Source of the DNA: Clostridiales bacterium | Lineage (GTDB): Bacteria; Bacillota; Clostridia; Caldicoprobacterales; DTU083 | Direction: 5' to 3' | Length of the DNA: 64,000 bases | Assembly (NCBI GenBank): GCA_012842605.1 | Contig: DUSN01000094.1 | Location: 1-64,000 of the forward strand | Shown here: positions 20,968 through 51,111 of the stretch, piece after piece | How the letters are laid out: every line of letters begins with the position of its first letter | Numbering within the stretch: the first letter of the stretch is position 1 | Position numbers and translations under genes: made by a program | The notes under the pieces: generated by a model | What the model was told of the DNA's origin: nothing | The model's database searches: none | The model's input: only the letters and a program-made list of their open reading frames with translations

Positions 20968-20995
20968 CTGCTGTGTAACGAAAAGGAGCAGTAAA

Positions 20996-23757: not shown

Positions 23758-23892
23758 GCTTTACATGCAATTTCTGCCTTCAAACCTTCCATCGCCCAGC
23801 TTTTCACTGCGGTGGACAATCTGAAATTCTATAAAGACTTTTTTGACTTATGTAGAACTTTATTATCATATGAGGGGTATGATGATGAATAG
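23758..23892 (+). pseudogene. Possible C-terminal gene remnant between sulfatase and URO-D 2
   Basis: In frame after the sulfatase stop, 44 codons stay open until a TAG at 23890-23892 that overlaps the next start codon. The translation (for example FKPSIAQLFTAVDNLKFYK) has protein-like composition. It could be the tail of a lost gene coupled to URO-D 2, or a lost sulfatase extension. No family was recognised. Confidence 0.25.
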
Positions 23893-29607: not shown

Positions 29608-30147
29608 ATGCCCGGATGGGCGATCGGTACCGGGAAAAGCTTAAGTCTTATACTCTATAATTACTGGACGGATATATTCTGTTTAGTAAAAATCCCAAAC
29701 CAAAGCAGGAAGTGTATAGCTAGAGACATTCATCCTGCCTGATTGGTAAAGAAAAATAACAGTGGTAAAAAAACATAAACAGATGTAAAAATGTTGTATC
29801 TGTTTCCGTAAGCCCGAATTATTTATAATGTGTTTATAGATACTGTTGAGAAGAAATAATCTGTGCCTATTTCAGCAGTCATTTGCGATACATGCCCGCT
29901 TTTTGACAGTTAATGCATATATAGATTCTTTAAATTAGCTAAGCACAGCTCAGGGATTTTGCTTACTTCTCATTTGTAAAGTCTGAGGACACCGTATGCA
30001 GAAAGCTGCACCATAAATAAAGACGGCACCTTAATAAAAAGCGGAGTTTAAATATAAAAGGCATATACGCTGATTAAGATATAAATTTTAATGCTCTATG
30101 AGATATTTTTGGAGTTAAGAATGGAATCTGATGTTGGAGTGATCTAT
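29608..30147. other. 540-base gap before the two-component system
   Basis: No credible gene was found. A CCCGG/CCGGG hairpin lies at about 29611-29634. The inverted repeat AAACAGAT/ATCTGTTT (29777-29805) is followed by TATAAT at 29824-29829 without a good -35, so an activator-dependent promoter is possible. A second TTGACA at 29903-29908 lacks a matching -10. Confidence 0.5.
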
Positions 30148-31911
30148 ATGCCGGAAAAAAGCTCGAATTGGCGGAAATCCATTTTTACCAGGCTGCTCAG
30201 TACATTTTTTATCATTATAATACCACTATATTTTATGGGCAGCAGTGTGTATCGATGGGGAGCACAAAGTGTCAGAAAAGAAATATCAAATTCCATGGTG
30301 GCACAGATCAATTCATATCTGAAAGGGCTGGAATATGAAATACGTCGAATCCAGGACCTGCAATATAATTGCTTAAGTGATAAAGATTTAAATAGGATTG
30401 CCGCCTTTCCCGAGGGTATGAGCGATCTAGTACGTGTATTGTCTGTCATGAGGCTACAATACAGGCTGTATTCCATCAGAAAAAGCAGCGAATATATTCA
30501 GGATGTCAGGGTATATATTCCGTCCATAAATAAAGTAGTAAATGAAAGCAGATTTACAAATGCACCATCCAATGATTGGTTTAATACACTTGCAGCTGCC
30601 AGCTTAAGTGATGAACCTATCAAGATGTATAAGGACAACAATATTGTTCTGAGCGCTGCATTTCCGCGGCAAAGTCCGGTAACCGATAGAAAGCCGATGT
30701 TTATCATTGAGATTCTTTTATCAGAGACCCAAATCAGGAATGCCTTGATGCGGATGGATGACTACAAAGGGAGAGGCACCATGCTTATCAGCCCGGAACA
30801 TAATATGCGGATTACCTACAGTGCTGATTCTGATGCTGATGAAATTATCTATAATGAACTGATGAACAGGCTGCAAAAAAGCAGTAGTGGTTCATTTACC
30901 ATAAAGCTTAACAAAACGCCCCATATTGCCATATATTCAACTTCCGATTACCTTAATGTGACCTTATGCAAATATATTCCTGAATCACAGATATTTGCAC
31001 CGCTATTTAAATACCAGATTCTTTTCTACCTGTTTACGGCTCTTGCAGTAGCAATTATAATCGGGTTTACATTCTATACCAGGGGGTTTATCCACCAGCC
31101 TTTAATGAAACTGGTCAAATCCTTTCAAATGGTTGAGAAGGGAGACCTAAGTGCCAGCCTGGAGCATGAATATGATGATGAATTCAGCTATCTATACAAG
31201 TGCTACAATGAAATGGTGAACCGGCTGAAAAACTTGTTTGACCAGGTATATACCCAAAAGCTTCTTGCACAGAAATCGGAACTGAAGCAGCTGCAATCCC
31301 AAATCAATCCTCATTTCCTGTATAATTGCTTCTTTAGCCTGAACAGCATGATTATTCAGCGTGAATATGACAACGCAGAGTACTTTACAAGACAGCTTGG
31401 CAGCTATTTTCAATATGTTACCAGGAATGCAGCGGAAGAGGTGCCGCTAATAAAGGAAATTCGTCATGCCAAAACCTATGCGGAAATACAGGCAAGGCGG
31501 TTCAGGAATCGCATCTGCCTGGATTTCTGCCCGCTGCCACAGGAGTTTCACCATATTATTGTACCCAGACTCATCGTACAGCCGATAATTGAGAATGCAT
31601 TTGAACACGGCCTAAAAAACAAAATCAGCAATGGATTTTTGCTGATCGATTATTATGTTGATGCGGATATATTGTTTATTTGCATAGAGGATAACGGGAA
31701 TGACCTTAGGGAAGAGGATATAGCCGCTATGAATGCTGCTCTGGCTGACAACGGCATTAATGCGGAAAGTACAGCAATCATCAATATACACAGGCGTCTT
31801 AGGCTTAAATATGGTGAAAAAAGCGGGCTGAGGTTCTCAGCAGCAGAACCGGAAGGACTTCGCGTTGAAATAATGATTCCGCTGCACGGTATGGAAATGG
31901 GGGGAATATAA
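30148..31911 (+). CDS. Sensor histidine kinase, YesM type
   Basis: This 587-residue membrane kinase has a first membrane segment (LLSTFFIIIIPLYFMGSSVY, about 13-32), a large extracellular sensing domain (about 33-285), a second membrane segment (ILFYLFTALAVAIIIGFTFY), a HAMP linker, the His_kinase domain with phospho-acceptor His389 in NPHFLYN, and a HATPase domain (PIIENAFEHGL). YesM/YesN-type systems sense extracellular carbohydrate and activate neighbouring uptake genes. ATG 30148 follows GGAGTGAT; upstream in-frame starts at 30121 (with GGAG) and 30091 are possible. It is three bases before its response regulator. It likely controls the operon starting at 33818. Confidence 0.9.
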   Translation: MPEKSSNWRKSIFTRLLSTFFIIIIPLYFMGSSVYRWGAQSVRKEISNSMVAQINSYLKGLEYEIRRIQDLQYNCLSDKDLNRIAAFPEGMSDLVRVLSVMRLQYRLYSIRKSSEYIQDVRVYIPSINKVVNESRFTNAPSNDWFNTLAAASLSDEPIKMYKDNNIVLSAAFPRQSPVTDRKPMFIIEILLSETQIRNALMRMDDYKGRGTMLISPEHNMRITYSADSDADEIIYNELMNRLQKSSSGSFTIKLNKTPHIAIYSTSDYLNVTLCKYIPESQIFAPLFKYQILFYLFTALAVAIIIGFTFYTRGFIHQPLMKLVKSFQMVEKGDLSASLEHEYDDEFSYLYKCYNEMVNRLKNLFDQVYTQKLLAQKSELKQLQSQINPHFLYNCFFSLNSMIIQREYDNAEYFTRQLGSYFQYVTRNAAEEVPLIKEIRHAKTYAEIQARRFRNRICLDFCPLPQEFHHIIVPRLIVQPIIENAFEHGLKNKISNGFLLIDYYVDADILFICIEDNGNDLREEDIAAMNAALADNGINAESTAIINIHRRLRLKYGEKSGLRFSAAEPEGLRVEIMIPLHGMEMGGI

Positions 31912-31913
31912 CC

Positions 31914-33581
31914 GTGTACAAATTGCTGATAGTAGATGACGAGCCGGATGTTGTTAACGGGCTTTGTGCCTATTTTGAAGATTTTGATGAACTGGAACTG
32001 GACATATATACGGCATATTCCGGCTATGAAGCGCTGGACATACTTAATGATACAAGGATCGATATCATCTTAAGCGATATCCTGATGCCGGGAATGACGG
32101 GCCTGGAGCTGCTGGAAAAGGTACGGGCCAACTGGCCTCATTGCTGTGTCATCTTTCTGACAGGGCATGATGAGTTTAGCTATGTGTATACAGCCATACG
32201 ATATGAATATGTTTATTATCTGCTTAAAACAGAAGGCTTTCATGCTATTGGGAAAACCCTTGTCAAGGCTGCTGCTCAGATTGAGAACCACCTGAAAATG
32301 AGCGAACTTCTAAAAAAGTCCGAAGAATACATGGAGACAGCTTTGCCATTTATGCAGAAGGACTACTTGGCCAATTTGCTTAATGGTGATGAAGATAATG
32401 CAGCAGACCGCAGCAGGCAGTTTAAAGAGCTTAAGATTCCCCTGGACTGGAACAGGCCGGTGCTATTGCTGCTTGGCAGGATGACGGGCCTGGACGGGAA
32501 TCTCTCATCTTATGAAAGATCCAGGCTTATTTTTGCTGTCCAGGCAGTTGCTGAGGAATACTTTCCAAAGGGCATTCATGCTTTTTTTCTGCCCATTGAC
32601 AGGTATCTGCTGCTATGGATCATTCAGCCTGGGGAAGAGGAGGAAAAAAGCGGAGAACTGTGGCAGCATATTAAAAATCAGACAAAGAGCAGTGCTGAAG
32701 TAATTCAAAATATCTGCCTGGACCAGCTCAATCTTTCCATTTCCTTTATATTAGACTGTGACAAAGCTGCATGGGAAGAGGTTTCACAAAGATACAGTTC
32801 ACTAAAGACGCTGATTCACTATCATCTGGGACCGGAATCGGAGCTTCTGCTTATGACCCGGTCACCGGAAATGGGCCTGCCCCAGCAGGACTTCATATAC
32901 GGCTACAGAAAACTAAAGAGCCTTGAAACATATCTGGAAAGCCTTCAGAGGGATGAGTTTCTCAATACACTTTTAGAGATTTACGAGAATCTGAAGAAAA
33001 CCGACAACCTTAGCCGCAATGCATTGCTGGAGGTTTACTATACTGTTGCCCTTACCATCCTTGGATATATCAACAGATACGGGCTTACAGAGAAAATATC
33101 CTATCACACCGGCCTGGATAAGCTAATCAGGATTGAGGAGCATGCATCCTGGCAGGATGCCATGGAGTATCTTATTGGATTGGTGAATATGATATTCGAC
33201 TTCAGGGAGCAGGACAGCAGAAAGTATTCGGTTTCGTCCATAGACGCGATTATTTTATATATCAACGAACACTTGAATGAAGATCTCAGCCTGGCTAAAA
33301 TGGCCGACCGCTTTCATTTCAACTCATCATACCTTTCACGGCTGTTTAAGCGTGAGACTGGCATTAATTTCCAAACATATATAAACGAGGCCAGGCTGGA
33401 AAAGGCAAAGCAGCTTTTGAAAAATACTGATATGAAGATCTATGAAATTGCCAATGCCATTGGCTGTGAAACCCCATCCTATTTTACACAGTTTTTTAAA
33501 CGGAATGCGAATATCAGCCCAATGAAGTACCGTGAGATTCACTTGATGAGAAAATCGGTAAAGAAAACTAAACAACAGTAA
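31914..33581 (+). CDS. Response regulator with AraC-type DNA-binding domain, YesN type
   Basis: This 555-residue regulator starts with a receiver domain (LLIVDDEPD, phospho-acceptor Asp55 in ILSDILMPGMTG). A long helical middle region of about 300 residues follows. The C-terminus holds two AraC helix-turn-helix motifs (LSLAKMADRFHFNSSYLSRL and KIYEIANAIGCETPSYFTQF). One oddity is the receiver segment near residue 100, which reads YYLLKTEGFHAI where the conserved Lys-Pro is usual. The start is GTG, with GGGGGGAA eight bases upstream in the end of the kinase gene. It is expected to activate the downstream solute-binding protein operon. Confidence 0.9.
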   Translation: MYKLLIVDDEPDVVNGLCAYFEDFDELELDIYTAYSGYEALDILNDTRIDIILSDILMPGMTGLELLEKVRANWPHCCVIFLTGHDEFSYVYTAIRYEYVYYLLKTEGFHAIGKTLVKAAAQIENHLKMSELLKKSEEYMETALPFMQKDYLANLLNGDEDNAADRSRQFKELKIPLDWNRPVLLLLGRMTGLDGNLSSYERSRLIFAVQAVAEEYFPKGIHAFFLPIDRYLLLWIIQPGEEEEKSGELWQHIKNQTKSSAEVIQNICLDQLNLSISFILDCDKAAWEEVSQRYSSLKTLIHYHLGPESELLLMTRSPEMGLPQQDFIYGYRKLKSLETYLESLQRDEFLNTLLEIYENLKKTDNLSRNALLEVYYTVALTILGYINRYGLTEKISYHTGLDKLIRIEEHASWQDAMEYLIGLVNMIFDFREQDSRKYSVSSIDAIILYINEHLNEDLSLAKMADRFHFNSSYLSRLFKRETGINFQTYINEARLEKAKQLLKNTDMKIYEIANAIGCETPSYFTQFFKRNANISPMKYREIHLMRKSVKKTKQQ

Positions 33582-33817: not shown

Positions 33818-35491
33818 ATGAAGGTTTCTACCGTTAAAAGGTTGATTGTACTGCTCTTGACGACCGCAATAGTATTTTCCTTAACAGCCTGTTCAAAACC
33901 CGCAGCAAATCCCGATCCGACACCCACGGCACCTCCGGCTACAGAAAAACCTGCTGATAATGAAGAAATTCCTACAGACTCTGATCGCTACGGAAAGTAT
34001 GATCCACCAATTAAGATGACTCAGGTAATTGCTCTTGGCACCCATCAGAAGTTTAGAGAAGGAGAAGACATTAACAACAATGTATGGATTCAATCCTATC
34101 TTGAAGACCTTGGTATTGAGCTGACCTATGACTGGGCAGTTGACGGAAGTGAATACGGTGAGAAGCTGAGCCTGGCCATTACCACCGACAACCTTCCGGA
34201 TGTGCTTACCGTTGGTGCGGCTCATTTCAAAACACTTGCAGAAGAAGGCCGCATCTGGGATTTAACGGATATTTTTGAGGAATATGCATCTGAAACCACA
34301 AAGGAAATCATGAAACAGGATGCCGTTGGCTGGAAATCAATGCATATAGACGGCAAACTAATGGGCTTGGGCTATACGGACAGCTCAGCTGCCAACGCTC
34401 CCCTGCTCTGGATACGCAATGACTGGCTGAGAAACCTCGGTCTTGAGGAGCCTAAAACCATGCAGGAAGTACTGGATGTTGCAGAAGCATTTGCCAGGAT
34501 GGATCCGGACGGAAACGGTGCAGATGATACCTATGCATTTGCATTCAACGGCAGCTCCAGATCCTTCTACGGCTTCTTCAATGCTTACCATGCATACCCC
34601 GGAATCTGGATACAGAAAGACGGAGAGCTGGTTTACGGGGGAATTCAGCCTGAGATGAAAGCAGCCCTGGCCAAGCTTCAGGATATGTACAGGTCCGGCC
34701 TGATTGATCCGGATTTTGCAGTAAATGATCCGGGTGAAGGCATAATCAACGGAAAATTCGGCATGGTTTATGGCGCCTGGTGGCAGTGCTTTGCCAATCT
34801 GCCCCATACCAGGGTAAATAATCCTGAAGCTGACTGGAGAGCATACAGGCCCATGTCAATAGATGACAAAATCGGCAAAGCCCAGTACAGCAATGCGGTA
34901 TACAATTACCATGTTGTAAACAAGGATTACGAACATCCCGAAGCCATGATAAAGATGTACAATTACTGGTTTGACATAATCACAAACCAGACAGAAGAGA
35001 ACCTGTATAAATATCTGGTAGACCGGGATGATCCCGAAATCGTAATGTACCACTACATCAATCTGATAGGCTGGGAACCGAAATCAAAAATGCCCCTGCA
35101 GCTGTGGGAGGCAATAGAATCCGGGGATACCTCCAACCTTCCCTTTGCTTCTCTGGAGACATATAACACTATCATGAGGTACCTGGAAGATCCCGAAAAC
35201 GCCGGTGTGGAAGAGTGGGCAACCTATGTGGGCAACGGTCCGGGAGGATCCCAGTCCATAATCTTTGAGGTTGGCGAAAACAGGGGCATATTCAATGAAT
35301 TCTACGGTGTACCCACGCCGATGATGGCAGAAAAAATGCCTGCTTTGGAATCAATGATGGATGAAATGATTATTAACATCGTCCTTGGTGAGCCGGTAGA
35401 CAATTTTGACCGCTTTGTAGAGGAATGGAAGAGACTGGGCGGCGACGAGATCACCTATGAAGTAAATGAATGGTATAAGAGGAACAAGTAG
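33818..35491 (+). CDS. ABC transporter sugar-binding lipoprotein, second system
   Basis: This 557-residue lipoprotein has a signal peptide with lipobox SLTAC (Cys25), a Pro/Thr-rich linker and a large binding domain. The segment MDPDGNGADDTYAF near residue 228 is the calcium-loop-like stretch common in LplA-type oligosaccharide-binding proteins. It is related to the protein at 8210 in length and C-terminal pattern (EEWKRLGGDEITYEVN against EWNDMGGELITYELN). AAGGAGG precedes the ATG. It is the first gene of the operon beside the two-component system and is followed by an internal terminator-like hairpin, which would make it the most abundant product. Confidence 0.9.
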   Translation: MKVSTVKRLIVLLLTTAIVFSLTACSKPAANPDPTPTAPPATEKPADNEEIPTDSDRYGKYDPPIKMTQVIALGTHQKFREGEDINNNVWIQSYLEDLGIELTYDWAVDGSEYGEKLSLAITTDNLPDVLTVGAAHFKTLAEEGRIWDLTDIFEEYASETTKEIMKQDAVGWKSMHIDGKLMGLGYTDSSAANAPLLWIRNDWLRNLGLEEPKTMQEVLDVAEAFARMDPDGNGADDTYAFAFNGSSRSFYGFFNAYHAYPGIWIQKDGELVYGGIQPEMKAALAKLQDMYRSGLIDPDFAVNDPGEGIINGKFGMVYGAWWQCFANLPHTRVNNPEADWRAYRPMSIDDKIGKAQYSNAVYNYHVVNKDYEHPEAMIKMYNYWFDIITNQTEENLYKYLVDRDDPEIVMYHYINLIGWEPKSKMPLQLWEAIESGDTSNLPFASLETYNTIMRYLEDPENAGVEEWATYVGNGPGGSQSIIFEVGENRGIFNEFYGVPTPMMAEKMPALESMMDEMIINIVLGEPVDNFDRFVEEWKRLGGDEITYEVNEWYKRNK

Positions 35492-35530
35492 TTAATTTTC
35501 CTGCAAATATAAATTTAACGGATATGGCAG

Positions 35531-35568
35531 GGGGAAGAAGGCGGTTAACTCCACCACTTCCCCTTTTT
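35531..35568 (+). terminator. Internal terminator/attenuator after the second binding protein
   Basis: GGGGAAG (35531-35537) pairs with CTTCCCC (35557-35563), and TTTTT follows at once. A weaker inner GG/CC stem extends it. It should stop part of transcription so the downstream permease genes are made in lower amounts. Confidence 0.7.
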
Positions 35569-35595
35569 CCTAAAATGGTTCAGAAGGAGATTGCA

Positions 35596-38547
35596 ATGTT
35601 AAGAAAAGCTGCCTTCGACAAACGCAAAATCTCATATCCTTTGAAGTGGCTGTGCTGTTTGCTCGTGCTGGCTGCTGTGCTTCAAACAATGGCATCCGCT
35701 GCTCCCGGCATACCGCTTAAGGATAAGTTTAAGTCTCAGGTGGTTCAGCCTGCTGACGATATAAGCGGGATTTCAGTTAAGCCCAATTATGCACAGATAA
35801 AAGAAGAATACAGTAAGCTTAACAGACTGCCTGCAAAAGGCTCAGAGGTAATACTTACTGCTGAAGACCTGTCAGCCCGCAGCCATGTCCCTGAAATTAA
35901 GAGTGGCATTGGTGGGAATGAGGATCCTGCTCTGGTGTGGGATAATCAGGAAGACTGGTTTGAATGGAGCTTTAGTATAGCGGATGAGGGCTTATACGAA
36001 ATCCATGTGGAATACTACCCCCTGCCGGGAACCGGCCTGGTGATACAGCGGGGATTGCTGATAGACGATGATTCGGCTTTTCAGGAAGCTTACAACATGC
36101 TTTTTTTCAGAAGCTGGGTTGATGACGGAGAACCAAGAAAAAACAGCAAGGGTGACGATGTGCGGCCCAGGCAGGCAGAGGTTCCCTACTGGAGAACCCT
36201 TGCATTTCACGACAGCAAGGGCTTGTATCCTGAACCGCTTCAATTCTACCTTGAAAAAGGTCAGCATACCCTGCGCCTTATATATATTGATCAGCCCATG
36301 GCAATAACAAGAATCATACTGAAGCCGCCGGAGGAATTGCCGGCTTATGTCGAAGTGAAGGCTGAATATATGCAAAAGGGCTTTCTTAATGCCGGCCATG
36401 GCATTACATTTCAGGCAGAAAGCAATGTTGCAGAAAAAAATGATCCCATCCTTAGACGGGAAAATGACGAAGATCCCATGACACAGCCCCAGTTCAAAGG
36501 AAACCGGGTGCTGAACTACATGGGAGGATGGCGCTGGAGGAAAGGAACCCAGTCCATTACCTGGGAGTTTGAAGTGCCGGAGGACGGTCTGTATAAGATT
36601 GGCATGCGGGTCATGCAGGATTGGGGAGACGGCCTGTCTTCCTACAGGAAGATTGCCATTGACGGCAAGGTTCCCTTTAAGGAGCTGCTGGAGTATCCAT
36701 TTGTATATGACAGGAACTGGTATGTGACAGCGCTGAAGGACGAAACCGGGGAACCCTTTCTCTTCTATCTGACTAAGGGCACCCACCGCCTGACCATGAC
36801 TGTACAGACAGGACCCTTAACCGAAATTGTCAACTCCCTGAATGACGATATATACATGCTGTCCCGGAAAATACGCCAGATTATCATGATCACCGGAGAC
36901 AACCCAGACATCCATTATGATTATAATCTGCCAAACCACATTCCCGGTCTCCTGGATGATTTCACCCTGCTTGCAGAGCGGATGCAGCAGAAGATGGATA
37001 TTCTTGAGCGGGTATCCAGGAGAAGGCCGTCCATGTACAACAATTTCAAGATGATAAAGAACCAGCTGGAGGAAATGGTGGATGACCCATTTACTATTCC
37101 CAAGCGGCTGCAGGACCTGAATAATGCGCTCACCAGTCTGAGCAGCTGGTACCTTGTCCTGCAGGATCAGCCACTGATGGTGGATTACTTCCATGTTTCC
37201 CCTTATGATGAAAAATGGCCTGACGGAAAATCCACTCTGCTGCAGAGGATAAAGGCCACATGGTTTAACCTGATCAATTCCTTTTACAAGGACTATGACA
37301 ATGTAGCAGGTTTCTATAATGAAGAAGTGATTGACGAAGAGGATGTTATTACAGTCTGGATTTCGAGAGGGATGGAGTGGGGAGAGATACTGAAGGAGAT
37401 TGCTGATGAAGACTTTACTCCAAAAACAGGGAAGCACATCAAAATGAACATACTGCCGCCTTCCCAATTGGAGGCTGGAGCTGTTAACGCACTGATGCTG
37501 GCCATAACATCGGGCAAGGCCCCGGATGTGGCTTTAGGTGTAGGGGCCAATTCCCCTGTGGAGTTTGCCATCCGCAATGCGGTTGCAGACCTGACCCAGT
37601 TTGAAAATTATGAAGAAGTGGAAAAAAGATTTGTACCCGGCGGAATAATTCCCTACCGCTATCAGGGCGGTGTTTATGCGTTGCCGGAAACCATGGATTT
37701 CAGAGCTATATTCTACAGAACAGATATTTTTGAGGAAATCGGCCTGACAGTACCAAATACATGGGAGGAGCTTTATCAGTACACCCTGCCCGTCCTGTAT
37801 CAGAACGGACTGGAGTTCTTCTATCCTCCGGAGCCGTCTCCCTTCCTGTTTCAAAAGGGCGGAAGCTATTATAACGAGGACGGAACCCGTTCAGGACTGG
37901 ATACACCGGAGGCCTATCAGGCCTTTAAGGAATTTACTGAGCTATATACCCAATACGGGGTCCCGGTCGTAGCAAATACCTTTAACAGGCTGCGTACAGG
38001 TGAGATGCCATTAACAGTGGGAAATTATGCACTTTATGTACAGCTTTCAGTTGCAGCTCCTGAGCTGACGGGCCGATGGACGATTGCTCCTATACCTGGT
38101 ACTCTTAAGGAAGACGGGACCATAGACAGGACAGCAGGCGGCATCGCATCCCAGGCCTGCATGATTATGGAAAGTTCGGAAAAGAAAGACGCGGCATGGC
38201 AGTTCCTGGACTGGTGGACCAGCGAGGCTGTCCAATCCCGATACGGCAATGAACTGGAAGCGGTCATAGGCATGGAAGCAAGATGGAATACAGCGAATCT
38301 TAAGGCATTTCAGCAGCTTCCCTGGAAGAAAAACGATCTTGAGGTTATTATGGAACAGCTGTCCTATGGTAGGGATATGCCCGTTGTCTTGGGCGGATAC
38401 TTTACAAACCGCCATCTTGTGAATGCCTGGATTCGGATTATTTTAGGCGAAACCCCTGTAAGAGATTCATTGGAAAAGGCAGTTAAGGATATCAATACCG
38501 AGCTTAAGAGCAGGCAGGAGGAATACGGCCTGAAAGCTGATGATTAA
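35596..38547 (+). CDS. Secreted fusion of carbohydrate-binding-like domains and a solute-binding protein
   Basis: This 983-residue protein has a signal peptide (KWLCCLLVLAAVLQTMASAA) that looks like a type I site (A-S-A) rather than a lipobox. Two beta-sandwich domains follow (WFEWSFSIADEGLYEIHVEY, about 110-260; and ITWEFEVPEDGLYKIGMRV, about 320-410), resembling galactose-binding/CBM folds. A helical stretch leads to a complete family-1 SBP domain from about 583 to the end (ITSGKAPDVALG, AIFYRTDIFEEIGLTVPNTW). It is more than twice the normal SBP length. AAGGAG precedes ATG 35596; a longer reading would include the terminator hairpin. How it stays near the membrane is unclear. Confidence 0.8.
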   Translation: MLRKAAFDKRKISYPLKWLCCLLVLAAVLQTMASAAPGIPLKDKFKSQVVQPADDISGISVKPNYAQIKEEYSKLNRLPAKGSEVILTAEDLSARSHVPEIKSGIGGNEDPALVWDNQEDWFEWSFSIADEGLYEIHVEYYPLPGTGLVIQRGLLIDDDSAFQEAYNMLFFRSWVDDGEPRKNSKGDDVRPRQAEVPYWRTLAFHDSKGLYPEPLQFYLEKGQHTLRLIYIDQPMAITRIILKPPEELPAYVEVKAEYMQKGFLNAGHGITFQAESNVAEKNDPILRRENDEDPMTQPQFKGNRVLNYMGGWRWRKGTQSITWEFEVPEDGLYKIGMRVMQDWGDGLSSYRKIAIDGKVPFKELLEYPFVYDRNWYVTALKDETGEPFLFYLTKGTHRLTMTVQTGPLTEIVNSLNDDIYMLSRKIRQIIMITGDNPDIHYDYNLPNHIPGLLDDFTLLAERMQQKMDILERVSRRRPSMYNNFKMIKNQLEEMVDDPFTIPKRLQDLNNALTSLSSWYLVLQDQPLMVDYFHVSPYDEKWPDGKSTLLQRIKATWFNLINSFYKDYDNVAGFYNEEVIDEEDVITVWISRGMEWGEILKEIADEDFTPKTGKHIKMNILPPSQLEAGAVNALMLAITSGKAPDVALGVGANSPVEFAIRNAVADLTQFENYEEVEKRFVPGGIIPYRYQGGVYALPETMDFRAIFYRTDIFEEIGLTVPNTWEELYQYTLPVLYQNGLEFFYPPEPSPFLFQKGGSYYNEDGTRSGLDTPEAYQAFKEFTELYTQYGVPVVANTFNRLRTGEMPLTVGNYALYVQLSVAAPELTGRWTIAPIPGTLKEDGTIDRTAGGIASQACMIMESSEKKDAAWQFLDWWTSEAVQSRYGNELEAVIGMEARWNTANLKAFQQLPWKKNDLEVIMEQLSYGRDMPVVLGGYFTNRHLVNAWIRIILGETPVRDSLEKAVKDINTELKSRQEEYGLKADD

Positions 38548-38558
38548 GGCATCAAAAC

Positions 38559-38655
38559 TCATGTATAGCAAAAGGCTCATAAACAAATAAGGTTTATGCA
38601 TAGATAAGATGTACATGAAGAGATAAAGGTTCATGTATGATAAAGGCTCATTAAC
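38559..38655. repeat. Degenerate direct repeat upstream of the third permease
   Basis: A unit of about 26 bases with TCATGTAT and AAAGGCTCAT followed by an AAC end occurs at 38559-38584 and 38631-38655, with similar AT-rich sequence between. It fills the 139-base gap between the fusion protein and the permease. No terminator is evident. Confidence 0.5.
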
Positions 38656-38686
38656 TGAAAAGGCTAATGCACAGGGAGGTCATCAT

Positions 38687-39643
38687 ATGAGTGTACAGGC
38701 AGGTGCCGATGCACGAAGATATGCAAGCGCAAAAGAGTTGATACGGAAATTGGGCAGTCAGAAGATCAAAAGAAGCCATGTAATCGGCTACTTGTTTTTA
38801 GCACCCTTTGTAATATTGTTTTCCATATTTATTGTTATCCCGGTTTTTGTATCTTTCGGACTCAGCTTTACAAGATACAGCATGCTTGAACCTCCTGTAT
38901 GGGTGGGCCTTACCAATTTCAAGATTCTTCTGATGGATGATGATATATTCCTTATTGCTTTGAAAAATACCATGATTTTTGCGCTGATTACCGGACCATT
39001 GGGATATATCATGTCATTTATGGCAGCCTGGGTGATAAACCAGCTGAAATTTAAAAACGGATTTGCCCTGGCATTTTATGCTCCTTCCATCACCAGCGGC
39101 ATTGCCATGTCAGTTGTCTGGATGTATTTCTTTTCAGGCGACCGTTACGGCCTGATTAATAACCTGCTTCTAAACCTCGGGCTGATTGTTGAGCCCATTA
39201 TCTGGAATATGAGCGAGAAAACCATCATGCCCGTTGTTATGATCATCTCAGTCTGGATGAGCATGGGTACCGGCTTTCTTGTGTTTTTAGCAGGCCTGCA
39301 GAATGTTCCCCGGGAGCTTTATGAAGCAGCTGCCATAGACGGTATCAGAAGCCGGTTCCAGGAATTGTGGTATATTACCCTTCCGCTTTTGAAGCCTCAG
39401 CTGCTGTTTGGCGCTATTAATTCCATTGTAGGCTCCTTTGGAGTATTCGATGTGGCGGTATCAGTGGCAGGCATTCCCAGCCCCAACTATGCTGCCCATA
39501 CTCTGGTTGCCCACCTGTACGACTTTGCCTTTATCCGGTTTCAGATGGGGTATGCATCAGCTGTTGCAGTGTGCTTGTTTCTGATCACATTTATACTGGG
39601 CCGGGTATCAATGAAATTGTTCTCATCCAAGGATGTATATTGA
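38687..39643 (+). CDS. ABC transporter permease (CUT1 MalF-like), pair A
   Basis: This 318-residue permease has an N-terminal cytoplasmic tail, then IGYLFLAPFVILFSIFIVIP as its first membrane segment. Its EAA loop reads YEAAAIDGIRSRFQELWYIT, close to the consensus. GGGAGGT seven bases before ATG 38687 fixes the start; an earlier in-frame ATG at 38633 falls in the repeat region. It pairs with the permease 12 bases downstream. No ATPase is nearby. Confidence 0.9.
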   Translation: MSVQAGADARRYASAKELIRKLGSQKIKRSHVIGYLFLAPFVILFSIFIVIPVFVSFGLSFTRYSMLEPPVWVGLTNFKILLMDDDIFLIALKNTMIFALITGPLGYIMSFMAAWVINQLKFKNGFALAFYAPSITSGIAMSVVWMYFFSGDRYGLINNLLLNLGLIVEPIIWNMSEKTIMPVVMIISVWMSMGTGFLVFLAGLQNVPRELYEAAAIDGIRSRFQELWYITLPLLKPQLLFGAINSIVGSFGVFDVAVSVAGIPSPNYAAHTLVAHLYDFAFIRFQMGYASAVAVCLFLITFILGRVSMKLFSSKDVY

Positions 39644-39655
39644 GGAGGCACAAAG

Positions 39656-40537
39656 ATGACAAAAATTGCTGCTAAAAAAGTACGCAGGAGACTGCGTTTC
39701 AGATTCAGCTTCAAATGGTTTCTGGTCTATGTCTTCATGCTCTCCCTTGTAGCATTTACTGCCCTTCCCATAGTCTATATGGTATCAACAGCGTTCAAGC
39801 CCATTGATGAGCTGTTTATCTATCCTCCTCAATTTTTTGTACGCAGGCCTACCTTGATAAACTTTTCCAATCTCCTGTTTGCACTCAACAGCTCAGAAGT
39901 GCCCTTTGTAAGATATATATTCAACAGCGTGCTGACAGCATCGGTCACTGTTGGCCTGACTGTTATCGTGTCAGCTATGGGTGCTTTTTCCCTGGTTAAG
40001 TACAAGCCGCCGGGTTCTAATATTATCTTCATGATTATCTTAGGTGCCCTGATGTTTTCTCCCCATGTTACCCAGATACCGACCTATATGGTGGTAAACA
40101 GTCTTGGAATTATCAATACCTACCTGGCCTTGATCATACCTAAGGTGGCTGTTGCCTATAACTTCTTTCTCATGAAGCAGTTTACCGAGCAGCTTCCCGA
40201 TGTGCTGCTGGAGGCAGCCCGCATTGACGGTGCCGGTGAGTGGTATATTTTCTGGAAGATTGTAATGCCCTCTCTCAGGCCGGCATGGGCAACTTTAATT
40301 GTGTTCTCCTTTGTAGCCAACTGGAACGACTACTTTTCCCCGCTGATTTTCACTACCAGCCAGACAATGAAAACCCTGCCCCTTGCTCTGCAGACCATAG
40401 CCGGAGGCTTGTCCATTGCCCGGGCAGGAGCGGTGGGAGCAGCAACCCTGCTTATGACCATGCCTACCATAATTATCTTTACCATTATGCAGGCCAAGGT
40501 CATGGAAACCATGGTACATTCTGGAATTAAAGCATAG
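39656..40537 (+). CDS. ABC transporter permease (CUT1 MalG-like), pair A
   Basis: This 293-residue permease begins with a basic tail (KKVRRRLRFRFSFKW), followed by a membrane segment containing YVFMLSLVAFTALPIVYMVS. The EAA loop is LEAARIDGAGEWYIFWKIVM. The upstream permease's TGA stop runs straight into the GAGGAGG ribosome binding site, so the pair is tightly coupled. It should form the second half of a heterodimeric channel with the 38687 product. Confidence 0.9.
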   Translation: MTKIAAKKVRRRLRFRFSFKWFLVYVFMLSLVAFTALPIVYMVSTAFKPIDELFIYPPQFFVRRPTLINFSNLLFALNSSEVPFVRYIFNSVLTASVTVGLTVIVSAMGAFSLVKYKPPGSNIIFMIILGALMFSPHVTQIPTYMVVNSLGIINTYLALIIPKVAVAYNFFLMKQFTEQLPDVLLEAARIDGAGEWYIFWKIVMPSLRPAWATLIVFSFVANWNDYFSPLIFTTSQTMKTLPLALQTIAGGLSIARAGAVGAATLLMTMPTIIIFTIMQAKVMETMVHSGIKA

Positions 40538-40557
40538 GGAAAGGAGGAGGCAGAGGA

Positions 40558-41991
40558 ATGATAAGAATCCTTAAAAAAGCTCTGGCAGCAGTGATTATGC
40601 TCCTTTTTCTGTTTCCCCAGCCTGCTCTTGCATCCAAATCCCAGGATTATGATTATGTTCTGGACAAAAATGTTAGAGTACCTATTCCCCGCACATATAA
40701 GGCAGACCGGGTCATTTCCTACCTGGGAGAAGAAATAGGCTATATGAAAGGAGCCGAGGATCTCTTTATAGACAGGCAGGGAATTCTTTACGTTGCAGAT
40801 ACCGGCAACAACCGTGTACTGAAGATGACAGGCAGCGGTGAGGTGCTGGGGGTTTTTACCGGTCCGAAGGAAAAGCCCATGAAGAGTCCCAGGGGAGTCT
40901 ATGTGGATGATGACGGTGATATCTATGTAGCTGATACGGAGAACGGGAGGGTGCTGCACTTAAGCCCGTACGGGGATTTTGTGGAGGAGTTTACAAGGCC
41001 CGAGTCCGATCTGCTCCATGAAACGGTATCCTTTGACCCAAACAAGGTGTTCATAAGCTCCACCGGGTATCTTTATGTCATCAGAGGACGGCAGTTCATG
41101 ATGATTGATGCATACAACCGGTTCAGGGGTTATGCAGGTGCAGATCAGGTGGGTTTCAGCTTAAATGACCTGCTGGTGCGGATATTTGCCTCAGATGAGC
41201 AGAAAAGCAGGCTGCAGAGGAGGGAACCGCCATCCTATATCAACTTTGTTATACATGAAGATGGAATGATCTATGCTGTTTCCGCAGGCAGCTCCAATCA
41301 AATCAAAAAGCTGAATTCCGTAGGAAAGAATATATATCCCAGCGGACAATACGGTGAGGTTGAAGAGGATGCTGAGGCAAAGGAACCGGCCTTTGCAGAT
41401 ATTGCTGTGGACAGGAATGGAATAATAAGTGTCCTTGACTGGAAGCTTGGCAAGGTTTACCAGTACGATCAGGAGGGCAACCTCCTCACCGTATTTGGGG
41501 GAATAGGCGCTGTTAAGGGAAAATTCGAATCACCAAGCAGCCTTGTTGTGGACAGGGACGGGAATATTTACGTGCTGGACAGAGGACGCAACAATATCCA
41601 GGTATTTGCTCCAACCAAGTTTATCAGAGATGTACATGAGGCGGTAATGCTGTATGCCAATGGCGATTATGCAGAGGCCCTGGTGAAGTGGGAAGAGGTT
41701 CTGAAGACCGATGCCAATTATACCCTGGCTCATAGGGGAATTGCGAAAGCCTTGTATAAAGATGAGGAATACCTGAGAGCCATGGAAGAATACAGAATCG
41801 GAGATGACCAGGAAGGCTATTCGCTTGCCTTTGAGGAATACAGGCATGAGTTCTTCAGAGGCAGCTTCGGTTTGCTTGTATTAGCCTTTATTCTATTGAT
41901 TTATATCCTTTACAAGGTGTTTATGCTGATGAAAAAGGCAGCCAAAAAGGAACAGCTCAAGGATACGGTCTGGCATGGGGAGGTTATTTAA
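40558..41991 (+). CDS. Secreted NHL-repeat protein with TPR-like segment and C-terminal membrane anchor
   Basis: This 477-residue protein has a signal peptide (KKALAAVIMLLFLFPQPALA), then NHL beta-propeller blades recognisable by repeated LYVADTGNNRVLKM, IYVADTENGRVLHL and IYVLDRGRNNIQVF motifs. A short TPR-like helical stretch (YANGDYAEALVKWEEVLKTD, about 370-420) follows. A membrane segment (GLLVLAFILLIYILYKVFML, about 437-456) and a basic cytoplasmic tail end it. The predicted layout is an extracellular propeller tethered to the membrane beside the permeases. Such propellers usually bind proteins or glycans; enzymatic action is possible but not shown. It is 20 bases after the permease pair and abuts the next gene. 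Confidence 0.8.
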   Translation: MIRILKKALAAVIMLLFLFPQPALASKSQDYDYVLDKNVRVPIPRTYKADRVISYLGEEIGYMKGAEDLFIDRQGILYVADTGNNRVLKMTGSGEVLGVFTGPKEKPMKSPRGVYVDDDGDIYVADTENGRVLHLSPYGDFVEEFTRPESDLLHETVSFDPNKVFISSTGYLYVIRGRQFMMIDAYNRFRGYAGADQVGFSLNDLLVRIFASDEQKSRLQRREPPSYINFVIHEDGMIYAVSAGSSNQIKKLNSVGKNIYPSGQYGEVEEDAEAKEPAFADIAVDRNGIISVLDWKLGKVYQYDQEGNLLTVFGGIGAVKGKFESPSSLVVDRDGNIYVLDRGRNNIQVFAPTKFIRDVHEAVMLYANGDYAEALVKWEEVLKTDANYTLAHRGIAKALYKDEEYLRAMEEYRIGDDQEGYSLAFEEYRHEFFRGSFGLLVLAFILLIYILYKVFMLMKKAAKKEQLKDTVWHGEVI

Positions 41992-42612
41992 ATGGAAGCA
42001 CTGCGATTGTCTCTGATGGTCCTGTTTCATCCGGCTGATTCCTTCCGCAGAATCAAGAGCGACAGAAGCCGGTTTGACAGCAAGCCTATTTTTGTCATAC
42101 TTTTTCTCTTAATTGTGGTCAGGGTTGCGTATATCTACCTCTGCCATTTTCCGCTGGCGCTCATTCAGCCCAGGGACACGAATATCTTCCTGGAAATCGT
42201 AAAGCTGATCCTGCCTGTGGTTTCCTGGGCAGTATCCTGCTATGCCGTTACAACCATTATGGACGGCGGGTCACTGATGCGTGAAACCATGACAGCTTCG
42301 GTCTATTGCATGATGCCATATATATACTTCACTATACCCTTGGCAGTCATTTCCCATGTACTGGGATTAAGCGAACTGATGCTGTACAGAGCATTAACGG
42401 CAGGAATCTGGATATGGGTGGTCCTGCTTTTCTTGATCAGCATAAAGGTAATGAACGAATATACAGTACTTCAGACCATAGGAGTCAGTCTGATAACACT
42501 TGTAACTCTAATTCTGATCTGGGCGGCTTTCCTGCTGCTGGCAACCCTGACGGGCCAGTTGATTGACTTTGTCAGGAGCCTGATCATTGAATTGAGATTC
42601 TTTCTCAGATAG
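41992..42612 (+). CDS. YIP1-family integral membrane protein
   Basis: This 206-residue protein has five or so hydrophobic segments (PIFVILFLLIVVRVAYIYL, ILPVVSWAVSCYAVTTIM, and others). Its opening EALRLSLMVLFHPADSFRRIK is the usual start of bacterial YIP1-domain proteins. The ATG follows the previous stop with no gap, so translation is coupled to the NHL protein. YIP1 proteins have no defined enzymatic role; here it may help assemble or scaffold the transporter. Other members beside NHL proteins in sugar-uptake operons are known to me from genome annotation only. Confidence 0.75.
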   Translation: MEALRLSLMVLFHPADSFRRIKSDRSRFDSKPIFVILFLLIVVRVAYIYLCHFPLALIQPRDTNIFLEIVKLILPVVSWAVSCYAVTTIMDGGSLMRETMTASVYCMMPYIYFTIPLAVISHVLGLSELMLYRALTAGIWIWVVLLFLISIKVMNEYTVLQTIGVSLITLVTLILIWAAFLLLATLTGQLIDFVRSLIIELRFFLR

Positions 42613-42627
42613 AAGAGGTGAACAAGG

Positions 42628-44901
42628 ATGAACAAGAGGAAAGCCATTACCGCAGTCATAGCTCTTGTCTTAAGCTTTTACTGGATATTGCATTTTTGTG
42701 GCTGTACAGGTAAACAGGAAGTACTTAAGCTTAATTCTTATGCAATGACTGTCAACACGACGGGTTCTGACGATACCGATAGAACTGCCGATATTGCTGC
42801 AACATCTGATTTAGCCCAGCCTGCCGGGTTCGCCGGAACTGACAGGTATGTCAAAGCTGCTGAAACCGATATCCTGGTAATGTATTACAACAGTGCGCAG
42901 TGTGCAATTGATATTGAGGATAAAAGAACCGGATTTGTTTGGTCATCATCAGTAAAGGATGATTATTACGGCAGCCCGCTGTCAGGACCTGCAGCAAAAA
43001 ATGTTCAATCTTTGTTTCACTTCAGTGTAACTGATTTTGATAAAGCATTTGTCGTTACCAATATTGCCTCTCATGGAGATAAACAGGTAACTGAACGCTT
43101 AACAGACAACGGATTGTCTGTGGACTACTACTTTCCAAAATACAATGTCGGATGGACCGTGGAGTTTTGGCTGGAAGGAGATAAATTCTATATAGATATC
43201 CCCCAGGACAAGATCATTGAGGATGGGAAGCATGGAATTGTATCCATCAATATGCTGCCCTGCTTTGGTGCAAGCCGGAATGACGAGGACGGCTATATTT
43301 TCTATCCTGACGGCAGCGGTGCACTGATGTATTTCAAGGGAAGGAACTTTTCGCTTCCCAAGCAGTACAGCTTCAGCATTTACGGGGAATCAAGAGTGGA
43401 TCTTGACCTGTATCATGAAAATGCATTGCTGGGTTTAAAAACCGCCATGCTGCCGGTCTTCGGGCTGAAAAGGGGAGAGAATGCATTTGCAGCCATTCTC
43501 GACAACGGTGAGCATGATGCTGTCATAAATCTGGCCTTAAGCGGCTATATTGCAGATGTAAACCGTATATCAGCCGAATTCCGTTTCCGGAAGGATTATT
43601 TCTATACCACCTCTGACAACAAAGTACTGAATATATTTGAAAAGGCAATGATTAAAACTCAGCGAAGGATGCATTATCAATTCCTGGCCGGGGATGATGC
43701 AAACTACAGCGGAATGGCCAATGCCTATCGAAAGTATCTGCTGGATGAAGGCAGAATCAGCAAGGTGATTGACAAAGATGATGGAATACCGCTGGGCCTT
43801 GACCTGTTTATGGGTGTTATAGAGGAAAGGCTGCTTTTTGACAAATACATTACTATGACCACCTTTGACCAGGCGAAGAGCATTTTAAGGGAATTCATAG
43901 ACCATGGCACAAATAACATTCTTGTAAACCTTATTGGCTGGACGCAAAACGGCTATGGCGCTTATCCCCGGCACCTGCCTCCCGGCAGAAAGCTTGGCGG
44001 AGCAAGAAAGCTGAAGAGCCTGGCGGAGTTTGCCCGCAGTGAAGGGCTCAAGCTTTACGTGCAGGACAACTTTGTGGATGCCTACAGCAAGAACCGCAAA
44101 TTTTCAAAGCGAAATGATACCGTACTGACCGAAGCGCGAATGGTAATCAGCAATAAGGAACAGGATGAATTCCTGCTAAATCCGGCAATATCCTGGAACA
44201 AGTTCACATCCTCATATATACCTAAAATTGAAAATTATGGCGTAGACGGAATTAGCTTTGAACGGTTCGGATCCCTTCTGTACCATGATTTTCACCGCCA
44301 ATATCCCCTGACCCGGGAAGGTACCGCAGAATACTGGAACAGGTTTATTTCCGAAACTAAGGAACGTCTGGGGCATGCTGCAGCAGAAGGCAATGCTTAT
44401 GTCCTGCCTTTTGTGGACCGGTTGTTTAACATTCCTGTTTCATCTTCCGGTTATTTCTTTACAGATGAGTCCATTCCATTTTACCAGATGGTGGTTCACG
44501 GTATGATTCCATATTCCTCTGAGCCGGGAAATCTGTTCTATGATATGGAAATTCAAAAGCTGAGCTGGGTGGAATATGGATGCATGCCATATTTTGAACT
44601 AACCTATGAGAACTCAAACTTGCTGAAATATACCGAATACAATGCCTTGTTTTCCTCACAGTACACGGACTGGCTGGAAACCGCCGTGTCATTGTACAAG
44701 GAGTTTAATGAAAGGCTGGGAAAGGTTTGGCCTCAGAATATGATCAGCCATGAGAGATTGTCTGACGGTGTTTACAGGGTAGGCTATGAGAACGGAATAA
44801 AGGTCTACATAAACTACAATGACCGGTATTCAAAAGCGGATGGCTATGAGATTCCGCCCCGTGATTACCTGGTGGTTGAGGAAGGGGGAAATATCAGATG
44901 A
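42628..44901 (+). CDS. DUF5696-type extracellular protein with predicted glycosidase-like barrel
   Basis: This 757-residue protein has an N-terminal signal region ending in HFCGCTGK. A Cys suggests a lipoprotein, although the lipobox is atypical. The first 350 residues look like a beta-sandwich; about 390-660 looks like a TIM barrel (LGLDLFMGVIEE, NILVNLIGWTQNGYGAYP, LKLYVQDNFVDAY, VDGISFERFGSL, AYVLPFVDRL); a small beta domain ends it. This order recalls GH13/31/101-like glycosidases. I recognise the sequence as DUF5696, which has no assigned activity that I know. It overlaps the next permease by four bases (ATGA), tying it to transport. A membrane-anchored glycan-processing role is inferred. 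Confidence 0.7.
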   Translation: MNKRKAITAVIALVLSFYWILHFCGCTGKQEVLKLNSYAMTVNTTGSDDTDRTADIAATSDLAQPAGFAGTDRYVKAAETDILVMYYNSAQCAIDIEDKRTGFVWSSSVKDDYYGSPLSGPAAKNVQSLFHFSVTDFDKAFVVTNIASHGDKQVTERLTDNGLSVDYYFPKYNVGWTVEFWLEGDKFYIDIPQDKIIEDGKHGIVSINMLPCFGASRNDEDGYIFYPDGSGALMYFKGRNFSLPKQYSFSIYGESRVDLDLYHENALLGLKTAMLPVFGLKRGENAFAAILDNGEHDAVINLALSGYIADVNRISAEFRFRKDYFYTTSDNKVLNIFEKAMIKTQRRMHYQFLAGDDANYSGMANAYRKYLLDEGRISKVIDKDDGIPLGLDLFMGVIEERLLFDKYITMTTFDQAKSILREFIDHGTNNILVNLIGWTQNGYGAYPRHLPPGRKLGGARKLKSLAEFARSEGLKLYVQDNFVDAYSKNRKFSKRNDTVLTEARMVISNKEQDEFLLNPAISWNKFTSSYIPKIENYGVDGISFERFGSLLYHDFHRQYPLTREGTAEYWNRFISETKERLGHAAAEGNAYVLPFVDRLFNIPVSSSGYFFTDESIPFYQMVVHGMIPYSSEPGNLFYDMEIQKLSWVEYGCMPYFELTYENSNLLKYTEYNALFSSQYTDWLETAVSLYKEFNERLGKVWPQNMISHERLSDGVYRVGYENGIKVYINYNDRYSKADGYEIPPRDYLVVEEGGNIR

Positions 44902-45770
44902 AGCGATATATGCTGAGTATGAAGGCAAGACGAATAAGAGACGGTTACCTGTTTGTGCTGCCCTGGATCATCGGCTGTATCTTCTTTTTTGCCGGGCCAA
45001 TTCTGCTGTCCATCCGCCTGAGTTTCAGCAAGCTTATAAAGGTAACAGGGTTCCAGATGGAATGGCTGGGCCTGGACAATTATATGCGGGCCTTTGTATA
45101 TGATGTTACCTTCATTCCCATGTTTCTTGAGGTAGTTAAGAACATGTTCGTCAACACCCCCCTCATTGTAATATTCTCCTTGTTTATTGCCATGCTTCTG
45201 AACAGGGATATCAAGTTAAGAGGGCTGTTCCGGGTAGTGTTCTTTTTGCCTGTTTTACTGGGAGCAGGCTATGTAATGCAGCAGCTGATCGGATACGGGG
45301 TTGATAAGGAATCCATTGAAGTAGCCAAAGGGATGCTGCTGCCCAGGGAAATGCTTCTCTATTTCGGGCCCCGGGTTTCCGGCTTTATTCAATTGTTCCT
45401 GGACCGGTTCACCATTATTCTGTGGAAATCCGGTGTACAGATCCTGCTGTTCCTGTCCGGGCTCCAGGGAATTCCTCCTGCTCTTTATGAGGCAGCCCGC
45501 TGTGATTCCGCCACGGAGTGGGAAATGTTCTGGAAGATTACACTGCCGATGATTTCACCGGTTATTTTGCTTAACATCGTCTACACCATCATAGACTCCT
45601 TTACGGATTTTGCAAATCCCATAATCGACTTTATCTACCAGACGGCCTTCCAGAGAACAGAGTTTGAGTATGCTGCAGCCGTAGGTTGGATTTATTTTAT
45701 TTTCATACTCATCATATTAGGAATGACCTTTGGTTTGATGAAACGATATATTTACCGTACAGGAAAATGA
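44898..45770 (+). CDS. ABC transporter permease (CUT1), pair B
   Basis: This 290-residue permease has the first membrane segment GYLFVLPWIIGCIFFFAGPI, and an EAA loop YEAARCDSATEWEMFWKITL in which the usual Gly after Asp is Ser. It starts within an ATGA overlap with the DUF5696 gene. It is a second, separate MalF-like subunit in the same operon, unlike the usual single pair per importer. Confidence 0.9.
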   Translation: MKRYMLSMKARRIRDGYLFVLPWIIGCIFFFAGPILLSIRLSFSKLIKVTGFQMEWLGLDNYMRAFVYDVTFIPMFLEVVKNMFVNTPLIVIFSLFIAMLLNRDIKLRGLFRVVFFLPVLLGAGYVMQQLIGYGVDKESIEVAKGMLLPREMLLYFGPRVSGFIQLFLDRFTIILWKSGVQILLFLSGLQGIPPALYEAARCDSATEWEMFWKITLPMISPVILLNIVYTIIDSFTDFANPIIDFIYQTAFQRTEFEYAAAVGWIYFIFILIILGMTFGLMKRYIYRTGK

Positions 45771-45795
45771 TGTATTATATTAAGGAGGGGGTTTC

Positions 45796-46767
45796 ATGCA
45801 AAGGAGCATCAGTTATTCACCGGGCAGGACAAAATTCAGAGCAATGCTGTCAAAGATAAATCACAAGAGCTTTTGGCTCAGCCGTGTTTACAGATTTTTT
45901 GTTTATGTATTGCTGCTGGATTTGACATTTATATTTCTTTATCCGTTCATGCATATGCTGGTTACTTCATTTATGACCGATGCAGACCTGGTGGATATCA
46001 CGGTGAAGTGGATACCCAATGAATTTCGCTATCAGAACTATATCATTGCCTATAACTTCCTGAAAGTGCCTGTGGGTCTAAGGAACTCCATCATTCAAAC
46101 CGGTCTTCCGGTCCTTGGGCATATTCTTTCCTGTTCCTTCATTGCCTACGGATTTGCCAGGTATAAGTTTCCCGGCAGGAACTTCATGTTTGTCCTGGTT
46201 CTGCTGTCATTCATCATTCCTGCCCAAACCATAATAGTTCCTATGTACATTAACTTTGTGAGCATAGGATGGGGCAAGTCCATACTCCCCTTGGTGGTGC
46301 CTACCTTCTTCGGATTTGGACTCAGGGGAGGTCTGTTTATCTTTATCTTCAGGCAGTTCTTCATGGGGCTTCCCACTGAGCTGGAGGAAGCTGCCCTGAT
46401 AGATGGCTGCGGAAGCTTCAGGACCTTTTTCACCATCATTCTGCCCCTTGCGAGAACAACAATCCTTGTTACGGCAGTTCTTGCAATGGTCTGGCACTGG
46501 AACGATTATTTTGAACCGTCCATATACATTACAAAGGCGTCTCTGTTTCCTCTTCCTCACATGCTGCCGGGCATGTACCAGGAGATGATACAGGTGAAAA
46601 ATATGTTTGTCATCAACCCCGTCACAGGCGAGCTGACGGAGAAGATCCTTAATGAGGCCGTGGCCATGGCAGGTACGGTGATCGTTATCCTGCCGCTGAT
46701 GATTGCATATTTGGTTCTGCAGAAACATTTCATGCAGGGCATTGAACGAACCGGCCTGGTAGAATAA
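45796..46767 (+). CDS. ABC transporter permease (CUT1), pair B partner
   Basis: This 323-residue permease has a long basic N-terminal tail, a first membrane segment (FFVYVLLLDLTFIFLYPFMH) and the EAA loop LEEAALIDGCGSFRTFFTII. AAGGAGGGGG lies just before the ATG. It completes the second permease pair. The operon therefore holds four permeases, two solute-binding proteins and no ATPase. Confidence 0.9.
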   Translation: MQRSISYSPGRTKFRAMLSKINHKSFWLSRVYRFFVYVLLLDLTFIFLYPFMHMLVTSFMTDADLVDITVKWIPNEFRYQNYIIAYNFLKVPVGLRNSIIQTGLPVLGHILSCSFIAYGFARYKFPGRNFMFVLVLLSFIIPAQTIIVPMYINFVSIGWGKSILPLVVPTFFGFGLRGGLFIFIFRQFFMGLPTELEEAALIDGCGSFRTFFTIILPLARTTILVTAVLAMVWHWNDYFEPSIYITKASLFPLPHMLPGMYQEMIQVKNMFVINPVTGELTEKILNEAVAMAGTVIVILPLMIAYLVLQKHFMQGIERTGLVE

Positions 46768-51028: not shown

Positions 51029-51111
51029 GGTTATTCATATCAGCAAGAAGTCTCTTGTTTATAAACCGCCTTTTGATGAACAATCAAATTATTGGAATCA
51101 GGAGGAAGAGC

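Follow-up and report, generated by a model that had tools for sequence, protein, structure and literature searches.

Carbohydrate importers of the CUT1 class of ATP-binding cassette (ABC) transporters consist of a family-1 solute-binding protein (SBP) and two MalF/MalG-type permeases with EAA loops, and they share an ATPase of the MsmK/MsmX/UgpC type, which is encoded elsewhere. Binding and import of large plant and host glycans in the absence of SusC/SusD are, to our knowledge, poorly understood in Gram-positive bacteria. Within the 64,000 nucleotides from a Clostridiales bacterium analyzed here (the window; contig DUSN01000094.1), eight genes on the plus strand (35596-46767) encode an SBP fused to a carbohydrate-binding module (CBM), the permeases A1 and A2, an NHL propeller protein with TPR repeats and a transmembrane (TM) helix, a YIP1 protein, a DUF5696 protein and the permeases B1 and B2. 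This unit, in the following called the cassette, resembles CUT1 importers in its family-1 SBP, its MalF/MalG-type permeases with EAA loops and an ATPase encoded elsewhere. It differs from them by two obligatory permease pairs, by the fusion of the SBP to CBM35-like domains and by the constant NHL-TPR-TM, YIP1 and DUF5696 subunits.

A further resemblance exists to YknWXYZ from Bacillus, a four-component ABC transporter whose YknXYZ part belongs to the MacAB-type exporters and includes a membrane-fusion protein (PMC4887032, PMC4338810). In both systems an ABC transporter is joined by a multispan protein of the Yip1 family and by a membrane-anchored protein outside the cell. The cassette, however, has CUT1-type permeases, an NHL propeller and a glycosidase-like protein instead of a MacAB-type exporter and a membrane-fusion protein, and a Pfam scan found no membrane-fusion protein family among its products. 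Gram-positive polysaccharide utilization loci (gpPULs) are described as clusters of a transporter, a regulator and degradative enzymes, with ordinary ABC, GPH, MFS or PTS transporters (PMC5320581). The window would count as a gpPUL, yet a constant eight-gene platform is not part of that description, the text of which contains neither NHL nor YIP1 (PMC5320581). In the literature outside subscription papers and preprints, no paper was found that mentions DUF5696 or that treats proteins of the YIP1 family together with ABC transporters for carbohydrates. Each part can be assigned to a known family, and the chemistry of transport does not depart from that of CUT1 importers; what appears to be undescribed is the constant association of the eight genes. 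We propose, with a probability of roughly 0.6, that they encode a modular machine on the cell surface which takes up complex oligosaccharides and comprises two CUT1 importers and an NHL-YIP1 scaffold.

Conservation of the eight genes as a unit

The genome of the window, 60 relatives and 299 genomes from across the phylum were searched for DUF5696, and the genes around each match were labelled with profiles built from the cassette proteins. This yielded 62 loci with a full DUF5696 gene, including a few near-duplicates (e.g., L027 and L043 from the same contig). At 26 of these loci the order CBM-SBP, A1, A2, NHL, YIP1, DUF5696, B1, B2 is exactly kept, and 16 further loci show the same order with NHL and YIP1 fused into one gene. 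The remaining ones comprise contig ends, gaps in the calling of open reading frames (ORFs), half-cassettes and a few rearrangements. Permease B1 lies immediately 3′ of DUF5696 in 56 of the 62. With dozens of loci in other genomes repeating this order, the arrangement goes beyond chance, and the eight genes form a single conserved unit. The genome of the window alone contains the unit three times, with three full DUF5696 copies.

The single components are also bound to the cassette. Among the 61 genomes made up of the window's own and its relatives, all 41 full DUF5696 genes have the cassette YIP1 just upstream, and 41 of the 42 matches to the YIP1 profile are located directly upstream of DUF5696, the other one being at a contig end. 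The CBM part of the CBM-SBP gave 39 matches of at least 300 bits, all in cassette-bearing genomes, and two weak others; the 40 matches of the NHL protein are likewise confined to cassette-bearing genomes. Pairwise distances of all components correlate with coefficients of 0.81-0.93, which was reached in none of 2000 permutations for the pairs tested, although these correlations partly reflect shared descent. The sequence-only reading had described a nine-gene transport cassette and had named two findings that would speak against it, neighbours not being conserved together and an equal association of the NHL, YIP1 and DUF5696 genes with unrelated operons. Neither was observed: apart from contig edges, half-cassettes and few rearrangements the order is kept, and the cassette families are absent from unrelated operons. 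The cassette thus stands with eight of its nine genes, while the first SBP (33818) is a local addition.

The unit is spread over the class and extends to other lineages of the phylum and to many Gram-positive bacteria, with the megaplasmids of Paenibacillus cellulosilyticus and Butyrivibrio fibrisolvens among the named carriers. In the phylum-wide sample, DUF5696 exceeded the family cut-off in 26 cases in 299 genomes. A DNA-level scan of genome contigs found two relatives only, because this method reaches close kin only, and no DUF5696 relative was found on viral contigs. In the rearranged cassettes L050 and L051 permease A2 is relocated behind permease B2, and in L126 the CBM-SBP, A1 and A2 genes follow B2.

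The cassette consists of an A half (CBM-SBP, A1, A2) and a B half (NHL-YIP1, DUF5696, B1, B2). In some lineages the B half stands alone (L112-L114, L118, L123, L128), and the A half was found standing elsewhere at two loci (L141, L142). A and B are therefore distinct modules which are kept together. All seven genomes checked from half-cassette lineages contain a CBM-SBP, and G298 has one half of each kind on separate contigs. The flanks of the loci vary and include GH26, GH10, GH43 and GH28 enzymes, sulfatases and many SBPs; among 37 sampled upstream flank genes, two encode AraC-type and two encode LacI domains. The regulators are, like the first SBP, local additions to the unit. Beside the cassette on the plasmid of P. 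cellulosilyticus (L129:16210-25433) lie genes for four LLM-class flavin oxidoreductases and for two SBPs in place of glycoside hydrolases, which suggests that not every copy of the cassette serves a polysaccharide.

Importers, NHL-YIP1 and DUF5696

The CBM-SBP (35596..38547) carries a signal peptide or anchor, two CBM35-like beta domains, a helical linker and a family-1 solute-binding domain (SBP_bac_1 at residues 620-904, E 5e-25). The profile of its N-terminal half matched the CBM35-bearing structures 5x7g (E 4e-10) and 2w47 (E 0.003), followed by the helical stretch. Although its ORF is listed from 35524, the ATG at 35596 is the more likely start, as it is preceded by AGGAG whereas 35524 lacks an evident ribosome-binding site. 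Permease A1 (38633..39643; UgpA 83 bits) is a MalF/UgpA-like CUT1 transmembrane subunit and permease A2 (39656..40537; UgpE 118 bits) a MalG/UgpE-like one, both with BPD_transp_1. Permeases B1 (44898..45770; 30.9 bits), which overlaps DUF5696 by 4 bp, and B2 (45796..46767; 60.6 bits) are likewise of the CUT1 type. All four permeases have kept the EAA loop for the ATPase, and both pairs are of the MalF/MalG type seen in CUT1 importers. At 25-27% identity, pairs A and B do not resemble one another more than they resemble an unrelated CUT1 pair of the window. This level of identity speaks against pair B being a recent duplicate of pair A, and the intact EAA loops speak against a degenerate, uncoupled pair B. 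Transport by the cassette would be directed inwards, as carbohydrate import.

The genome of the window has one homologue of the UgpC/MsmK-like ATPase (57% identical; G000:C82:28017), which would serve the cassette. In P. cellulosilyticus, ugpC is found directly upstream of the cassette. The stand-alone lipoprotein SBP that precedes the core in the window (33818..35491; SBP_bac_1 E 8e-15, lipobox LTAC) was rejected as a core member since it is not conserved at other loci. Stand-alone SBPs are nevertheless the commonest flanking family, although at variable positions (16 of 58 downstream and 13 of 37 upstream genes), and they also occur beside half-cassettes. The lipoprotein SBP is for this reason a candidate binding protein for pair B.

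The NHL protein (40558..41991; NHL E 8e-22) is exported and consists of a signal peptide, a beta-propeller, TPR repeats and a C-terminal TM helix (residues 439-457). Directly abutting it, the YIP1-family membrane protein (41992..42612) has about five TM helices and scores 31.5 bits for Yip1 (Pfam PF04893), compared with a curated cut-off of 28.6. Among 59 NHL proteins, 31 have a length of 467-516 aa, with YIP1 encoded by its own gene at that locus, while the other 28 (672-835 aa) lack such a gene and instead carry a terminal YIP1 domain (E 1e-35 to 1e-77). The two are thus fused or separate neighbours in all 59 loci, without any exception. On the DUF5696 tree the fused or separate state requires 11 changes, at least eight of them being forced by well-supported branches. 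That these two neighbours have repeatedly fused and split indicates that NHL and YIP1 are one functional part, and it is strong evidence for the two acting together. A search of the PDB with the YIP1 profile gave no match. The Yip1-family protein YknW has been reported to modulate the assembly of the ABC transporter YknXYZ (PMC4887032, PMC4338810), and by analogy a scaffold role of the cassette YIP1 may be considered.

DUF5696 (42628..44901; 607 bits) has a lipobox-like or TM N-terminus and is an exported, membrane-attached protein of the GH129/GH101 superfamily. Its profile matched DagB (5opq/8rzg, E 1e-13) and the GH129 enzyme NagBb (5wzn, E 2e-10), and the homology to NagBb and to DagB, a 3,6-anhydro-D-galactosidase (PMC5698469), extends across the N-terminal beta-sandwich, the TIM barrel and the C-terminal domain. 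DagB requires Asp486 and Glu517, of which Asp486 is equivalent to Asp435 of NagBb (PMC5698469). Unlike these enzymes, the cassette DUF5696 is encoded within a transporter unit and has no conserved nucleophile or acid/base: no invariant Asp or Glu was found in the barrel among 34 aligned cassette proteins. Stand-alone relatives (L097-L105; homologous to the cassette protein with hhalign E 1e-54) retain the motifs Y[VI]D and SE[GA], which resemble the nucleophile and the acid/base. While essentially all of them keep both residues, the nucleophile column is D in 22 and the acid/base column E in 11 of 62 cassette proteins; near both motifs the alignment is locally ambiguous and the mapping of the columns to NagBb and DagB residues indirect. 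With the catalytic Asp and Glu kept in stand-alone relatives but unconserved in the cassette, its DUF5696 is quite probably a non-catalytic, glycan-binding subunit.

Six of the stand-alone relatives (565-668 aa) have intact candidate Asp/Glu motifs and no adjoining transporter (L097:1087-2790, L098:7004-8761, L099:7243-8961, L100:419-2200, L101:4332-6029, L102:8264-10270). The stand-alone proteins are possibly an undescribed GH129/GH101-like glycosidase family. Two proteins of about 700 aa with weak similarity to DUF5696, one of them with DUF6259, are encoded in the same genome as the window (L068:8736-10823 on G000:C108 and L107 on G000:C91). Both adjoin CUT1 permease and SBP genes and might be evolutionary forerunners of the cassette arrangement.

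Proposed uptake machine and rival readings

In the proposed uptake machine, glycan captured by the CBM35-like domains of the CBM35-SBP fusion would pass to importer A (A1/A2), and importer B (B1/B2) would receive its substrate from a separate SBP of variable position, here probably the one at 33818-35491. A single membrane-anchored scaffold, made up of the NHL propeller/TPR protein and YIP1, would position DUF5696 over importer B and coordinate both importers. DUF5696 may act as a glycosidase fold without catalysis, which binds or orients the glycan. A shared UgpC/MsmK-type ATPase encoded elsewhere would power both importers, and the locus-specific neighbouring enzymes would set the substrate. 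Its physical assembly, glycan substrate and direction of import, as well as the SBP of importer B, are what we infer for this machine. Several observations weigh against it. As the half-cassettes demonstrate, joint encoding of the two importers is not required, and the NHL-YIP1 fusion is the sole direct proof of physical contact among the parts. In the subclade of the window, eight of 11 DUF5696 members have a Glu or Asp one residue before the nucleophile column, which would be compatible with residual or unusual catalysis. The AlphaFold models of DUF5696 (from a three-row alignment; predicted local distance difference test, pLDDT, 41) and of YIP1 (pLDDT 53) are poor. A stricter version is considered less likely than not: two different ABC channels would be clamped into one physical machine by NHL-YIP1, with a retired glycosidase as glycan guide or receptor and long or branched glycans entering via the double importer. 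If true, Gram-positive bacteria would possess in this machine a functional equivalent of the SusCD-type uptake platforms, and no precedent for it has been described.

The separability of the halves, the intact EAA loops of each pair, the low identity between the pairs and the frequent stand-alone SBPs would also fit two conventional CUT1 importers which work independently and only happen to be on one transcript; NHL-YIP1 and DUF5696 would then be loose accessories, and each permease pair would import a different product of the same polysaccharide. Independent importers should, however, shuffle and be lost separately, yet the eight parts co-occur almost without exception in the phylum-wide sample, and the half-cassette genomes checked still carry the CBM-SBP elsewhere, which makes this explanation rather unlikely. 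The sequence-only reading had assumed a surface complex that captures and trims glycan and would pass it on to two channels. Such a complex is plausible, with the recurrent NHL-YIP1 fusion as direct evidence for a part of it, but trimming found no support because the only enzyme-like subunit, DUF5696, lacks conserved catalytic acids. An exported DUF5696 that acts as a glycosidase by means of a shifted or unusual catalytic pair, in a complex that captures, trims and imports, is accordingly unlikely. In favour of it are the clear homology to the GH129 alpha-N-acetylgalactosaminidase and DagB, a fold preserved between the beta-sandwich and the C-terminal domain, and the acidic residue of the window's subclade; the variable flanking enzymes, however, already provide catalysis. 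Finally, NHL-YIP1-DUF5696 could be a transporter-linked sensor (transceptor) which reports glycan to a neighbouring kinase or regulator and does not aid uptake. A histidine kinase and an AraC-type regulator adjoin the cassette in the window and lie near it in Butyrivibrio, and propeller/TPR and dead-enzyme subunits resemble ligand-recognition parts. As regulators are not constant among the sampled upstream flank genes and permease pair B retains its ATPase-coupling loops, a sensor appears very unlikely.

The proposed uptake machine is a defined, testable system in which eight genes stay constant while the glycan-degrading enzymes beside them vary. It includes three subunit types (NHL-TPR-TM, YIP1 and DUF5696) not known in sugar import and offers a working hypothesis for DUF5696 and for a bacterial YIP1 protein. 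The annotation of ABC sugar importers in Clostridia and Paenibacillus, the genes of which are now separately named "permease," "YIP1 family" and "DUF5696," would change as well.

Genomic setting of the window

The assembly of the window has a size of 3.28 Mb and is 84% complete. All nine ORFs of the sequence-only reading were found where it had placed them, on the plus strand, and their Pfam identities (SBP_bac_1 twice, BPD_transp_1 four times, NHL, Yip1 and DUF5696) agree with it. From the first SBP through permease B2 the intergenic gaps are 32, 85, 12, 20, 0, 15, -4 and 25 bp, so that the abutment at 41991/41992 and the overlap at 44898-44901 are both real. The run of genes probably continues downstream to 52185, with gaps of 96, -4, 62 and -4 bp. 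Scans for promoters and terminators performed no better than on shuffled sequence.

The island around the cassette is one of carbohydrate utilisation and runs in one direction; it contains numerous glycoside hydrolases, a sulfatase, DUF2961 proteins and another CUT1 importer. The enzymes alongside the cassette and its regulators include GH2, GH43, GH78-like, LacZ and GH32 proteins. Directly upstream, a two-component system of a sensor histidine kinase and an AraC-type response regulator (30091..33581, plus strand) is a probable local regulator outside the core. Two DUF2961 proteins are encoded at 47937-49799 and 59538-60677, one of them in the tight run behind the cassette together with an amidohydrolase and an acetyl-xylan-esterase-like (AXE-like) protein. 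A protein of 386 aa without Pfam match (51025-52185) overlaps the preceding AXE-like gene by 4 bp and has a relative at L113:2. The island also includes three genes of the uroporphyrinogen-decarboxylase family (20912-22072, 23843-24820 and 61199-62338), the products of which are possibly corrinoid methyltransferase-like.

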